Positions 4,089-9,712 of a DNA stretch of 48,619 nt are shown one piece after another. Numbering within the stretch: position 1 is the stretch's first letter; every line of letters starts with the position of its first letter. The stretch comes from Solirubrobacterales bacterium (lineage in GTDB: Bacteria > Actinomycetota > Thermoleophilia > Solirubrobacterales > 70-9). Where the stretch lies: NCBI GenBank assembly GCA_017882505.1, contig JADGPJ010000011.1, forward strand, positions 1-48,619, given 5' to 3'. The position numbers and the translations under genes were made by a program. A model generated the notes under the pieces. It was not told the DNA's origin. It saw nothing but the letters and a program-made list of their open reading frames with translations, and did no database searches.

Positions 4089-4784
4089 GTGGCCGCGGAC
4101 CCCACCTCGGCAGTCGCGGCCCTCTCGGCGCTGATCGGCGAGCTGCCGGCGGAGCTGCGCGAGCAGGCGCTCACCCATTCTTCGTGGACCGAGCGGCGGA
4201 TCGACTCCTTCGAGCGGCTCGCCTTCCTCGGCGACAGCGTGCTCGGGCTCTCGGTCGCCACCGATCTCTTCGAGCGCTTCGACGCGACCGACTCGGGCGG
4301 CCTGACGAAGATCCACAACCAGGCCGTCAGCGGCGTCTCCTGCGCCGAGGTCGGTCGCCAGCTCGGCGTCCCCGAGATGCTGCGCGCGAACGAGCCCGAC
4401 GACGTCACCGCCGCGATCCCGGCCGAGATCCTGCTAGATGGCGAGAGGCCGCTGCCGGAGGCGACCGAGGCGCTGATCGGCGCCTGCTATCTCGCTTTCG
4501 GCTTCGAGCGCACCGCGGTCGCGGTGGCGGCGGCGTTCGAGCCTCGGATCGAGCTCGCGGCCGAGACCAGGATCGACTTCAAGTCCGCTTTGCAGGAGCT
4601 TTTGGCGCGTCGCGGGGCGCGCGTAAGCTACGAGGTGATCGCGGCCACGGGACCCCCGCACCGGCGCACCTTCGAGGTGGCGGCGATCGTCGATTCCGAG
4701 CGGGTCGGGTCGGGCGAGGGGCGCAGCAAGAAGGCGGCCGAGCAGATCGCCGCCGAGCAGGCGCTGGCGCAGCTCGGTGGCTAG
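4089..4784 (+). CDS. rnc: ribonuclease III
   Basis: The 231-residue protein has the RNase III signature ERLAFLGDSVLGL at residues 42-54, with the catalytic Glu/Asp pair. A second acidic segment, PEATEALIGACYL, supplies the remaining metal ligands. A double-stranded RNA-binding domain follows from about residue 157 to the end (DFKSALQELLARRG to KKAAEQIAAEQAL). It processes rRNA precursors and other dsRNA. The start is GTG at 4089, 12 bases after acpP. The gene leads into smc after 66 bases, the standard rnc-smc-ftsY neighbourhood. Confidence 0.95.
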   Translation: MAADPTSAVAALSALIGELPAELREQALTHSSWTERRIDSFERLAFLGDSVLGLSVATDLFERFDATDSGGLTKIHNQAVSGVSCAEVGRQLGVPEMLRANEPDDVTAAIPAEILLDGERPLPEATEALIGACYLAFGFERTAVAVAAAFEPRIELAAETRIDFKSALQELLARRGARVSYEVIAATGPPHRRTFEVAAIVDSERVGSGEGRSKKAAEQIAAEQALAQLGG

Positions 4785-4850: not shown

Positions 4851-7229
4851 ATGTATCTGAGATCGATCACGATGAAGGGGTTCAAGTCGTTCCCCGAGCG
4901 GGTGAGCCTCGAGTTCTCGCCCGGCGTCAGCGTGATCGTCGGCCCCAACGGCTCCGGCAAGTCGAACATCACCGACGCCGTCCTCTGGGCGCTGGGAGAG
5001 CAGAGCCCGGGAGCGATCCGCGGCGCCTCGATGCAGGACGTGATCTCCGCCGGCGGCAAAGGCACCGGTCAGCGCCGCGCCGCCGAGGTCGAGGTCGTGA
5101 TCGACAACTCCGACGGCCGCGCCGCGACCGAGTTCTCCGAAATCGCCGTTCAGCGCCGGCTCGATCGCGCCGGTGAGGGCGTCTACCGGCTCAACGGCGC
5201 CCGCTGCCGGCTCGCCGACATCACCGACGTCCTCTCCGACACCAACCTCGGCCGCGAGATGCACTCGGTGATCAGTCAGGGCCGGGTCGAGACGATCGTC
5301 CACTCGAAGCCGCGCGAGCGCCGCCTCCTGGTCGAGGAGGCCGCCGGCCTTGGCAAGCACCGCAAGCGCCGCCGCCGGGCCGAGCTGAAGCTGCGCGCCG
5401 CCCGCGACAACCTCGACCGCGCCCTCGACGTCGAGCGCGAGGCCCGCGCCCGCCTGCGCCCGCTCAAGCGCCAGGCCGAAGCCGCCGAGCTCGGCGCCCG
5501 GATCGAGCGCGACGAGCTCGGGCTGCGCGGCAGGCTGGTCTCCGAGGAGCTCCGCTTCGGCGCCGATCGGGCCGCGGCCGCGGCGAAGGCGGCGACCAAG
5601 GCTCGCGCGACCAGGACCAAGCTCGAGGAGCGCCTGGTCGAGGTCAGCAAACGCCGCCGTGAGGCCGAGGAGCGCTTCGCCGCCCGCGACCGCGAGCGCA
5701 CCCAGGCCTGGGGGGTGCTGACCAAGCTACGCGGTGAGCAGGAGCGGGTCGCCGTCCGCGTCGCCGGCCTCTCCGGTCGCGAGACCGAGCTCGAGGCACG
5801 CCTGGAGGGCATTCGCGGCGAACTCGGGCCGCTGACCCTCGACATCGGCGCCAGCGGCGCCCCGGCCGAGCGCGCGCGCAAACTGGGGCAGGAGCTCGCC
5901 GAGGTCGACGCCGGCTTGAAGACCGCTGTCGACGGTCTCGCCGTCGCCCGCTCCGACGCCGCCGCCGAGGCGGCGCGCGAGGCGGCGCTCGGCGACGTCC
6001 GCGGCGGTGCCGAGCGCGCCTCCCGTCACGCCCGCCGCGCCGAGGGCCTGCTCGGCGAGCGCCACCGCGAGGCGCTGCGCCAGCGCGTGGCCGCCGGCGA
6101 GGAGCTGCTCGACGATGTTCGCGCCGCGCTGGCGGCGATCGAAGGCGTCGGTGCCGCGATCCGCGCCCGGGTCGAGCGGACCGAGCGCAAGGTGGTCGGC
6201 GGCGAGGGCGACGGCGACGAGATCGCCGATGAGATGCGCGCCTGCTCGCAGCAGGAGTTCGAGCTCCAGGCCGAGATGAAGGCGGCGTCCGACGAGCTGA
6301 CCAAGACCGAGGTCGAGGCCGCCCACCTCGGCGACCGCCGGGCCGAGGCGGAGCGGGACCTGGCGGCGATCGCCGAGCGCCTCGGCGAGGAGATCCCGCC
6401 GGCCGAGGAGGCGCTGAGCGAGGAGGAACGGGCCGAGATCGACCGCCGCCTCGAGCGCCTCGAGCGCCGCCGCTCCCAGATCGGCCCGGTCAACCCGCTG
6501 GCCGAGCGCGAGTACGACGAGGCGCGTGAGCACGTCGAGAGCCTGCAGGGCCAGCGCGAGGACACCGAGCGGGCGATGCGCGAGCTGGAGTCGCTGATCC
6601 GCGACATCGACAACGAGATCGAGCGCGCCTTCGAGCAGACCTTCGAGGCGACGGCGAAGAACTTCGAGGAGATGGTCGAGCACCTCTTCCCCGGCGGGCG
6701 CGGCCGCCTGCGCAGGGTCAGCCTGCGGCCGGTCCGCGACGAGGAGCGCCCGAGCGGTGAGCAGGAGGCAGCGTCCGACGCCGAGCCGGAGCCCGAGGTC
6801 GAGGAGGAAGAGGAGCGCGACGAACTCGGGGTCGAGATCGAGGTAACCCCGGCCGGCAAGTCGACCCGCAAGCTCTCGTTGCTCTCGGGCGGCGAGAAGT
6901 CGCTGGTCGCGCTGGCCTTCGTCTTCGCGGTCTTCCTCGCCCGGCCCTGCCCCTTCTACATCCTCGACGAGGTCGAGGCCGCCCTCGACGACGCCAACAT
7001 CGACCGCTTCCTACAGCTGATCCGCCGCTTCTCCGACCGCGCCCAGTTCGTCATCGTCACCCACCAGAAACGGACGATGGACGCCGCCGACGTCCTCTAC
7101 GGAGTCAGCATGGGCGGCGACGGCGTGACCAAGGTCGTCTCCAAGCGTCTGCCGCGGGACACCGCCGCCGAAGAGGTCGACGAGGACGAGGGAGAGGCCA
7201 CCGGCGGCACCCTCTCCGCCGTAGCCTGA
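4851..7229 (+). CDS. smc: SMC-type chromosome segregation ATPase, short and apparently hinge-less
   Basis: At 792 residues this is far shorter than the usual ~1150-1200 of bacterial SMC. The N-terminal head is complete: LRSITMKGFKSF start, Walker A GPNGSGKS at 31-38, and the SMC-specific ISQGRVETIV/EEAAGLGKHRKRRR segment at about 142-178. The C-terminal head is also complete: GPVNPLAEREYDEA, ABC signature LSGGEKS at 678-684, and Walker B FYILDEVEAALD from 702. Between them are only about 390 residues of charged, Ala/Glu/Arg-rich coiled coil. I find no hinge-domain motifs. An acidic Glu/Pro-rich insert (about 625-665) interrupts the C-terminal head. The frame is continuous without stops. Its position between rnc and ftsY is the canonical smc locus. 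No scpA or scpB is visible in the window. Alternatives are a diverged hinge I cannot recognise, or an SMC-like paralogue. Confidence 0.9.
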   Translation: MYLRSITMKGFKSFPERVSLEFSPGVSVIVGPNGSGKSNITDAVLWALGEQSPGAIRGASMQDVISAGGKGTGQRRAAEVEVVIDNSDGRAATEFSEIAVQRRLDRAGEGVYRLNGARCRLADITDVLSDTNLGREMHSVISQGRVETIVHSKPRERRLLVEEAAGLGKHRKRRRRAELKLRAARDNLDRALDVEREARARLRPLKRQAEAAELGARIERDELGLRGRLVSEELRFGADRAAAAAKAATKARATRTKLEERLVEVSKRRREAEERFAARDRERTQAWGVLTKLRGEQERVAVRVAGLSGRETELEARLEGIRGELGPLTLDIGASGAPAERARKLGQELAEVDAGLKTAVDGLAVARSDAAAEAAREAALGDVRGGAERASRHARRAEGLLGERHREALRQRVAAGEELLDDVRAALAAIEGVGAAIRARVERTERKVVGGEGDGDEIADEMRACSQQEFELQAEMKAASDELTKTEVEAAHLGDRRAEAERDLAAIAERLGEEIPPAEEALSEEERAEIDRRLERLERRRSQIGPVNPLAEREYDEAREHVESLQGQREDTERAMRELESLIRDIDNEIERAFEQTFEATAKNFEEMVEHLFPGGRGRLRRVSLRPVRDEERPSGEQEAASDAEPEPEVEEEEERDELGVEIEVTPAGKSTRKLSLLSGGEKSLVALAFVFAVFLARPCPFYILDEVEAALDDANIDRFLQLIRRFSDRAQFVIVTHQKRTMDAADVLYGVSMGGDGVTKVVSKRLPRDTAAEEVDEDEGEATGGTLSAVA

Positions 7230-7296: not shown

Positions 7297-8784
7297 ATGG
7301 CACAAAGCCACATGGACAGGCTGACGTCCTTCGACGCGTCGTTCCTGGCCAACGAGAGAGCGAACGGACACATGGCGATCGGCGCGCTGCTGATGTGCGC
7401 CGGGAGCCCACCCTCCGACGAGGACTTCCTCGCCCACATTCGCAGCCGGGTTCACCAGCTGCCGCGTTTGCGCCAGCGCCTGCTCTACCCACCGCTGCGC
7501 CTCGGGACGCCGTTCTGGGTCGACCACCACGACTTCGACATCCACCGGCATGTGCGCCGGATCGCCCTGCCGGCACCCGGTACCGAGGCGCGGTTCCGGG
7601 AGCTGGTTGGAGAGCTTCTGGCGCCTGCGCTCGATCGCTCCCGGCCGCTCTGGGAACTGATCCTGGTCGAGGGGTTCGAGGACGACCGTTTCGCGATCGT
7701 CTACAAGACCCACCACGCGATGGCCGACGGGATCTCGGCCGTCGACATCGGCATGCTGCTGTTCGACGTCGAGCCCCGCTCCGAGCCGGCCCGCGACGAA
7801 GCACCGTGGTCGCCGGCGAAGGCCCCTTCCCGGCTGGCGCTGCTGAGGAGGGCGGGCTCCGGGGTCGCCGCAACGATCGCCCGCCTCGGTCGCTGGCTGC
7901 GGCGAGCGATCCGCCAGCCGCAGCAGGCGCGCAGGCGCGCCGCCGACGGTCTCGCCGGCCTCTGGGAGGTGACCTGGAACCTGGCGCGGCCGGCGCCGGA
8001 GGTCCCGTTCAACACCGAGATCGGGGCCGCCCGCAGCTTCTGCTGGGCGAACTTCGATCTGGCCGAGTTCAAGCGGATCAAGAACGCCCTCGGTGGCACC
8101 GTCAACGACGTCTCGCTCGCCGTCGTCGCCGGGGCGCTGCGTCGCTGGCTGCAGGACCAGGACGTCCCCGTCGACGGGCTCGAGCTGAAGGCGCTGGTGC
8201 CGGTTTCGATCCGTACCGAAGACGAGCACGGCGAGCTCGGTAACAAGCTGACGGCGATGCGGGGACCGCTGCCGGTCGGGGTCGACGACCCGGTCGCTCG
8301 CCTGCGCACCGTCAGCGCGGCGATGGACGGACTCAAGGCCTCCAAGCAGCCGCTGGGTGCGGAAGCCATCTGGGGACTCAACGACTGGTTCCGGGACTTC
8401 GCGCCGCCGCTGCTGCTCGGGCCGACCGCGGCGGTCAACTTCTCGACCCGGCTCTTCAACCTGCTGGTGACCAACTTCCCGGGCCCCCAGGTTCCCTTCT
8501 TCGTCCTCGGCCGCGAGCTGACCGCGATCTACCCGGTCGGGTTTCTCGCCCGCAGGCACGCGCTGGCGATCGCGATCCTCAGCTACAACGGCCAGGTCGG
8601 CTTCGGGCTGCTCGCCGATCCCGGCTCGCTGCCCGACGCCGAGCGGATCGCCGCACACCTTGCGCCCTCCGTCGAGGAGCTCCTTGCCGCCGCGCCGATA
8701 GCCTCCCCCGGCGATGGCAACGAGCTGGCAGGAGATGATCGACCTCGGTTCGCGCGTGAGCGCGAACGCCTCGACCGAGGCTGA
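7297..8784 (+). CDS. WS/DGAT wax ester synthase/diacylglycerol O-acyltransferase
   Basis: The 495-residue protein matches actinobacterial WS/DGAT enzymes in length and motifs. It starts MDRLTSFDASFL (from M6) and carries PLWELILVEG, then the catalytic HHAMADG (HHxxxDG) at 139-145. Further on are NDVSLAVVAGALRRWL and the C-terminal NFPGPQ segment. These enzymes make triacylglycerol or wax ester storage lipid from acyl-CoA at the membrane. The start is supported by GGGAGGGAGG six bases upstream, and TACCCT at about 7267 may be its own -10 box. The gene is wedged between smc and ftsY, and its last 71 bases overlap the ftsY reading frame start. Confidence 0.92.
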   Translation: MAQSHMDRLTSFDASFLANERANGHMAIGALLMCAGSPPSDEDFLAHIRSRVHQLPRLRQRLLYPPLRLGTPFWVDHHDFDIHRHVRRIALPAPGTEARFRELVGELLAPALDRSRPLWELILVEGFEDDRFAIVYKTHHAMADGISAVDIGMLLFDVEPRSEPARDEAPWSPAKAPSRLALLRRAGSGVAATIARLGRWLRRAIRQPQQARRRAADGLAGLWEVTWNLARPAPEVPFNTEIGAARSFCWANFDLAEFKRIKNALGGTVNDVSLAVVAGALRRWLQDQDVPVDGLELKALVPVSIRTEDEHGELGNKLTAMRGPLPVGVDDPVARLRTVSAAMDGLKASKQPLGAEAIWGLNDWFRDFAPPLLLGPTAAVNFSTRLFNLLVTNFPGPQVPFFVLGRELTAIYPVGFLARRHALAIAILSYNGQVGFGLLADPGSLPDAERIAAHLAPSVEELLAAAPIASPGDGNELAGDDRPRFARERERLDRG

Positions 8785-9712
8785 GCCAGAGGCCGAGCGC
8801 CGCGGCGTCTTCAAGCGCCTGCGCGAGAGCCTCTCCAAAAGCCGTCAGGCGCTGACCGAGGAGATCTCGGCCAGCCTCTTCGACCGTATCGACGAGGAAA
8901 CCTGGGAGCGCCTCGAGGAGGCGCTGATCCTCGCCGATGCCGGCGCGCCGACCACCGCCGCGGTGGTCGAACGGCTCGAGCACGAGGTCGACGCCGGTGA
9001 GGTTCCCGCCGACGGCGCCCTGGTCCGCGACCGCTTGATCGAGATCCTTGCCGAGGTCGCGGCGACCGGGCGGGCGCCGATCGACCTCAGCGGCGAGCCG
9101 GCGGTGCTGATGATGGTCGGCGTCAACGGCACCGGCAAGACGACGACGATCGGCAAGATCGCCTGGCACCTGAGCAAGGAGATGGGCCTCTCCGTCGTCC
9201 TCGCCGCCGGCGACACCTACCGCGCCGCCGCCGCCGAGCAGCTCGCCGAGTGGGCGCGGCGCGCCGGCGCCGACCTGGTGCGGGGCGAGGAAGGCGCCGA
9301 CCCCGGCGCGGTCGCCTTCGACGCGATCTCCGCCGCCCGCGCCCGCGGCGCCGACGTCGTCATCGTCGACACCGCCGGTCGTCTCCATACCCAGAGCAAC
9401 CTGATGGAGGAGCTTTCGAAGGTGAAGCGGGTGATCGCCAAGCAGATCCCCGAGGCGCCGCACGAGACACTGATCTCGATCGACGCCACCACCGGCCAGA
9501 ACGGGCTGCGCCAGGCCAAGGTCTTCTCCGAAGCGGTCGACCTCGACGGCGTCGTGCTGACCAAGCTCGACGGCACCGCCAAGGGCGGGATCGCGCTGGC
9601 GATCGCCGCCGACCTCGGGATCCCGGTGAAACTGATCGGCGTCGGCGAGACGCTCGAGGACCTGCGCCCCTTTGACCCCGCCGAGTACGCCGCCGCCCTG
9701 CTGGCCGAGTAG
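8714..9712 (+). CDS. ftsY: signal recognition particle receptor FtsY
   Basis: The 332-residue protein has a short, moderately charged N-terminal region, an N domain (about 45-120) and the SRP-GTPase G domain. P-loop GVNGTGKTTT lies at 136-145, followed by DTYRAAAAEQL, DTAGRLHTQSNLMEEL, TKLDGTAKGG and IGVGETLEDLRPF. It docks the SRP-ribosome complex at the membrane and works with Ffh, encoded 20 bases downstream. The ATG at 8714 gives a 71-base overlap with the acyltransferase gene. A GTG at 8756 is a possible shorter start; neither has a clear Shine-Dalgarno sequence. Confidence 0.95.
   Translation: MATSWQEMIDLGSRVSANASTEAEPEAERRGVFKRLRESLSKSRQALTEEISASLFDRIDEETWERLEEALILADAGAPTTAAVVERLEHEVDAGEVPADGALVRDRLIEILAEVAATGRAPIDLSGEPAVLMMVGVNGTGKTTTIGKIAWHLSKEMGLSVVLAAGDTYRAAAAEQLAEWARRAGADLVRGEEGADPGAVAFDAISAARARGADVVIVDTAGRLHTQSNLMEELSKVKRVIAKQIPEAPHETLISIDATTGQNGLRQAKVFSEAVDLDGVVLTKLDGTAKGGIALAIAADLGIPVKLIGVGETLEDLRPFDPAEYAAALLAE

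Follow-up and report, generated by a model that had tools for sequence, protein, structure and literature searches.

A single-copy SMC protein without a hinge, and with a conserved motif at the tip of its shortened arm, in a Solirubrobacterales bacterium

We analysed a stretch of 48,619 nucleotides from a Solirubrobacterales bacterium (contig JADGPJ010000011.1 of assembly GCA_017882505.1; hereafter the window), in which the gene smc encodes a structural maintenance of chromosomes (SMC) protein of 792 amino acids. It is nearly certain that this product is the orthologous SMC of the Smc-ScpAB complex and that it has no hinge. The hinge normally connects the arms of two SMCs and is regarded as indispensable to these proteins. 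What it does is debated; it has been seen as a dimeriser, as a DNA entry gate and as a gate for the bypass of obstacles. The source genome is a 2.63-Mb draft assembly (127 contigs, 93% complete) and belongs to a family of uncultured actinobacteria of soil and freshwater. The original prediction, made from the DNA letters alone, described intact ATPase heads in a stop-free frame at the canonical rnc-smc-ftsY locus, and this description held, one gene intervening before ftsY apart (see below). The open reading frame starts with ATG and contains no internal stops; the Walker A (GPNGSGKS, from residue 31), signature (LSGGEKS, at 678) and Walker B (YILDEVEAALDD, at 703) motifs are all intact; and the protein scores 612 bits with the NCBIfam SMC_prok_B equivalog TIGR02168 (cut-off 567) and 220 bits with PF02463. 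The gene occupies the same locus as the smc genes of its neighbours, occurs in a single copy, and its heads cluster with theirs.

Both a match to a hinge profile and a predicted hinge fold were looked for between the heads, and neither was found, in agreement with the absence that had been proposed. The Pfam profile PF06470 (SMC_hinge) gave no match in the protein, nor in any frame of the whole assembly, which excludes a separately encoded hinge piece in the assembled part of the genome. With a hinge profile made from hinge-bearing relatives within the clade, the 30 hinge-bearing proteins all scored 29-179 bits and none of the 31 hinge-less ones exceeded 2.8 bits, a clean separation; comparison of the hinge profile with the inter-head region by hhalign yielded a probability of 0.1-0.2. 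The AlphaFold2 model (31 aligned sequences) predicts helices and loops only for residues 143-616, with no strands at all. When the same pipeline was run on L053, a hinge-bearing sister within the family, it predicted from fewer aligned sequences (23) an alpha/beta hinge with eight strands at about residues 446-570.

The shortened gene is not peculiar to this assembly. We recovered 31 complete hinge-less orthologues of 774-820 residues from eight genera of the family (g1, g2, g3, g5, g6, g7, g11 and g12), whereas three other genera (g4, g9 and g10) carry a normal hinge. The orthologues come from independent assemblies, several of them with few contigs (a single one for G025, about five for G027); they were used in place of reads and rule out the local deletion artefact that had been considered. 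An smc-like match was present in 50 of the 50 family genomes; some of these matches are cut off by the end of a contig, and in a few genomes only weak or very short ones were obtained. The full-length smc elsewhere in the genome that would make this gene a paralogue was looked for as well: six-frame searches of the family genomes revealed no second full SMC, the further matches being weak and fitting SbcC-like or other ATP-binding cassette ATPases. A second smc and a split gene were thus both rejected, and the gene stands as an orthologue. It is under purifying selection, the ratio of nonsynonymous to synonymous substitution rates (dN/dS) being 0.04-0.30 across the head, arm and tip regions in four pairs of genus mates. 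Two side observations concern single draft genomes: in G019 the smc is split over two overlapping frames (L070 and L099, 687 + 233 residues), probably by a sequencing frameshift, and a contig of G151 (C138) carries a second, hinge-bearing SMC (L001) that scores far above the resident one with the bacterial profile and perhaps represents contamination of the draft.

No scpA or scpB had been seen in the window, and the genome search indeed placed both outside it, as adjacent, intact genes on contig C35 (ScpA, 242 residues; ScpB, 203 residues). Matches to ScpA and ScpB occur in 47 and 46 of the 50 family genomes, respectively. The genes encoding ParA and ParB are also adjacent in the same genome, and some 2.3 kb before parA, immediately upstream of yidC, there is a parS-like site (CGTTCCACGTGAAACG) that departs from the consensus at three positions; the parS-like pattern occurs at two places in the genome and a reversed control pattern at none. 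The presence of ScpA, ScpB, ParA, ParB and a parS-like site indicates that the loader and kleisin partners of a normal SMC have been retained.

The stretch between the heads measures 374-378 residues in every one of the 31 hinge-less SMCs, with coil identity as low as 38%, as compared to mostly 660-691 residues in the hinge-bearing Solirubrobacterales (outliers of the comparison set being one shorter protein, 519, and two more distant relatives, 806-808). Such constancy fits a constraint on arm length like that of the Bacillus subtilis Smc, which is functional only at certain arm lengths (PMC5344682). Profile alignment with L053 shows that about 51 residues stand in for about 339 of the latter, namely a portion of the arm, the hinge-proximal coiled coil, the hinge itself and the return; the N-terminal cut coincides with a predicted break in the coiled coil of L053 (residues 354-360). 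The replacement is predicted to form a helical hairpin and carries the motif RRxExLLGxR, a relaxed pattern of which was found in 31 of the 31 hinge-less SMCs and in none of the 31 further SMCs used for comparison (30 hinge-bearing ones and the short L152). The mean column conservation amounts to 0.91 at residues 396-405, versus 0.42-0.6 in most of the tip surroundings. A fold search against the PDB ranked SMC heads at the top and gave nothing informative for the tip. The features are listed in the table below. Between smc and ftsY sits a gene encoding a wax ester synthase/diacylglycerol acyltransferase (WS/DGAT), and in many loci of genera g1 and g11 relatives of WS/DGAT likewise lie immediately downstream of smc.

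Table. Positions in the window of smc, its parts and the adjoining genes
Feature	Position	Strand	Remarks
rnc (ribonuclease III)	4089..4784	+	canonical upstream neighbour
smc, hinge-less, 792 aa (amino acids), single copy	4851..7229	+	ORF (open reading frame) reading; profile and genome searches
N-terminal ATPase head half, aa 1-165	4851..5345	+	Walker A at 4941-4964
N-terminal coiled-coil arm, aa 166-353	5346..5909	+	one-to-one with L053 aa 166-353, hhalign probability 100
New helical hairpin tip, aa 354-404	5910..6062	+	predicted turn at aa 368-372
Tip motif RRxExLLGxR, aa 395-404	6033..6062	+	pattern search and conservation
C-terminal coiled-coil arm, aa 405-545	6063..6485	+	matches L053 aa 693-830, hhalign probability 99.7
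C-terminal head half, aa 546-792	6486..7226	+	signature 6882-6902, Walker B 6957-6992
WS/DGAT gene	7297..8784	+	
ftsY (SRP54-type GTPase)	8714..9712	+	canonical downstream neighbour

As an explanation of the whole we moderately favour a functional, core-only Smc-ScpAB subunit whose arms are paired through the new tip. The SMC 'periphery' (the hinge and the hinge-proximal coiled coil) has been lost and the 'core' (the ATPase heads, the joint and the head-proximal arms) kept. On this explanation two SMCs would pair via the tip (RRxExLLGxR) and via arm-arm rod contacts; the ring would be closed by ScpA at the heads; the complex would still be loaded at parS by means of ATP and still extrude loops; and the role in single-strand gating or obstacle bypass that is assigned to the hinge would be lost. 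The original prediction had called for another way of pairing, and our leading inference is that such a route exists and that the conserved tip motif is a concrete candidate for it. An unrelated dimeriser can take the place of the hinge in B. subtilis (PMC5344682), and arm-arm contacts are described in PMC5526789 as an aid to the in vivo dimerisation of hinge-less Smc. The closest experimental support comes from Wadjet, in which the elbow-to-hinge segment of JetC was swapped for nine residues: with the arms cross-linked at the cut, core-only JetC still cleaved DNA but no longer bypassed obstacles (PMC12647877). From this result a natural core-only SMC is predicted to need closing where it has been shortened, and this is the site of the conserved motif.

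Several points speak against this explanation. Dimerisation at the tip is something that we infer, and the motif could instead bind DNA or a partner. The AlphaFold2 monomer was obtained with modest confidence (predicted local distance difference test, pLDDT, 75.8; predicted template modelling score, pTM, 0.49). B. subtilis Smc in which hinge dimerisation was abolished is non-functional (PMC5344682), so that the protein described here could conceivably differ in its activity or be less active. Core-only JetC, finally, was closed by an engineered disulphide, and reduction of that bond abolished its activity (PMC12647877).

The other explanations differ in what they leave to the tip. Pairing might proceed without a stable contact at the tip, by ATP-dependent engagement of the heads together with ScpAB (as in RecN) or by tips that touch in trans. 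The short arms, in which profiles and AlphaFold2 reveal no known dimerisation domain, and the intact heads and ScpAB would suit such a scheme; a near-constant inter-head length and an invariant motif are nevertheless unexpected for an idle tip, and the Wadjet core construct needed ring closure at just this end, so that we consider it unlikely. A separate protein might also bind the new tip, bridge two SMC arms and thereby supply the hinge function. Strong conservation of the motif within an otherwise fast-changing coil speaks for this, but the immediate neighbours that were checked (rnc and ftsY) are ordinary, the WS/DGAT gene excepted, in an inspection that did not extend to a genome-wide search for candidates; we hold a bridging protein to be quite improbable.

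The remaining two explanations question the observation itself. PF06470 can overlook real hinges, and a Caulobacter control genome indeed gave no match, so that a divergent hinge might have been missed; it was rejected on the clade-built profile, the hhalign comparison and the AlphaFold2 contrast with L053 as positive control, and the inter-head space measures just about 377 residues, which together make a missed hinge highly improbable. The draft state and limited completeness of the genome would, on the other side, allow for an assembly or deletion artefact, a pseudogene or a paralogue of a full-length smc elsewhere, an option that becomes almost negligible in view of the independent complete orthologues, the lack of a further smc in those genomes of the family that were searched and a dN/dS well below 1.

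The history of the loss within the family differs with the genes that are considered. When the tree is built from neighbouring genes, g4, g9 and g10, which bear a hinge, fall among the hinge-less genera and a single hinge-less clade is rejected (approximately unbiased, AU, test, p = 0.0065), whereas for the SMC heads and arms it is not (p = 0.196; 0.49 and 0.15). The tip motif is common to both hinge-less branches of the family, which speaks in favour of the tip having arisen once. It is possible that a single loss was followed by transfer or regain, or that there were two losses in the family.

Beyond the family, hinge loss or replacement seems to be recurrent in the actinobacterial phylum. 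A survey found 53 of 297 genomes without a PF06470 match, and 20 genomes without a match were followed up in a targeted manner. No hinge was detectable in family f15 (L191, L192 and L194; frames of 741-779 residues, about 369-402 between the heads) and family f33 (L185 and L190; 893-900 residues). More tentatively, as judged from profiles and sequence, the same holds for family f12 (L187 and L193; about 1018 residues) and for genus g31 of family f3 (L152 and L181; about 931-961 residues), which has a short tryptophan-rich segment at the hinge position. The Pfam hinge was found in the control L053 and in none of the five of these SMCs that were tested. A tree of the heads spreads these SMCs over more than one clade (six changes; a single clade has an AU p of about 1e-80), f15 and f33 being long branches whose grouping may be false. 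L152 and L181 (genomes G153 and G145), and also L151 and L180, carry at the place of the hinge a segment of about 60 residues resembling W..TW.EVR.VI.EGVE, a possible mini-hinge.

A sole SMC that lacks the hinge and is accompanied by ScpAB and ParABS amounts to a natural hinge knockout that can be compared with hinge-bearing members of its own family, and can be likened to the engineered Wadjet construct that is active without a hinge. The tip motif provides a specific replacement to mutate, by which the purpose of the hinge becomes testable in nature. The broader proposition is that actinobacterial lineages repeatedly made their sole SMC a natural 'core-only' condensin, and that in the present family dimerisation of the arms passed to a newly evolved hairpin of about 51 residues bearing RRxExLLGxR, so that chromosome loading and loop extrusion proceed free of a hinge or hinge gate; we put its chances slightly below even. 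Among the papers that we searched, none treats SMC, the hinge and Solirubrobacterales together.

Three of the comparisons suggested by the original prediction found no support. A Rad50-like variant is unsupported in view of the lack of a CxxC in any of the 31 hinge-less proteins, by which a zinc hook was rejected; a MukB-like one in view of the hinge that MukB itself possesses, according to the structure (PDB 2WMM) cited in PMC6969161; and a 'minimal head-only loader' is unsupported because the heads, a coiled-coil arm of near-constant length, ScpA, ScpB and ParAB/parS are all retained. With Rad50/SbcC the protein shares heads, an antiparallel coil and the lack of an SMC hinge; it differs in having no zinc-hook CxxC, in heads that are SMC by sequence and in its ScpAB partners, and the Rad50/SbcC profile gave 72.7 bits, under the 700-bit cut-off. 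The archaea-specific SMC-related proteins (ASRP) are likewise short and SMC-like, but their profile matches weakly (67 bits, far under the family cut-off of 300, as against the score with the SMC equivalog). With canonical Smc-ScpAB (B. subtilis, L053) the heads, head-proximal arms, joint, locus, ScpA, ScpB and ParB/parS are shared, and the difference lies in the short replacement of the hinge region. Like core-only Wadjet JetC (PMC12647877), it has lost the hinge and the hinge-proximal coil and kept head-proximal arms with a short connection; unlike JetC, it is natural and chromosomal, has a conserved hairpin rather than a GGGGSGGGG linker and lacks a nuclease partner. Hinge-less SMCs as such are already known: a clade from marine Actinobacteria was published by Sussfeld et al. 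2025 (PMC12153180), from ocean metagenomes and with no named genomes, its authors leaving paralogy, lineage and function open. By description that clade shares SMC heads and a coil, no hinge, no CxxC and no normal SMC alongside. What is new here is that the question of paralogy is answered for another lineage, by an orthologue that sits at the rnc-smc-ftsY locus, has its ScpAB and ParABS partners in the same genome and shows defined replacement boundaries and a defined tip motif.
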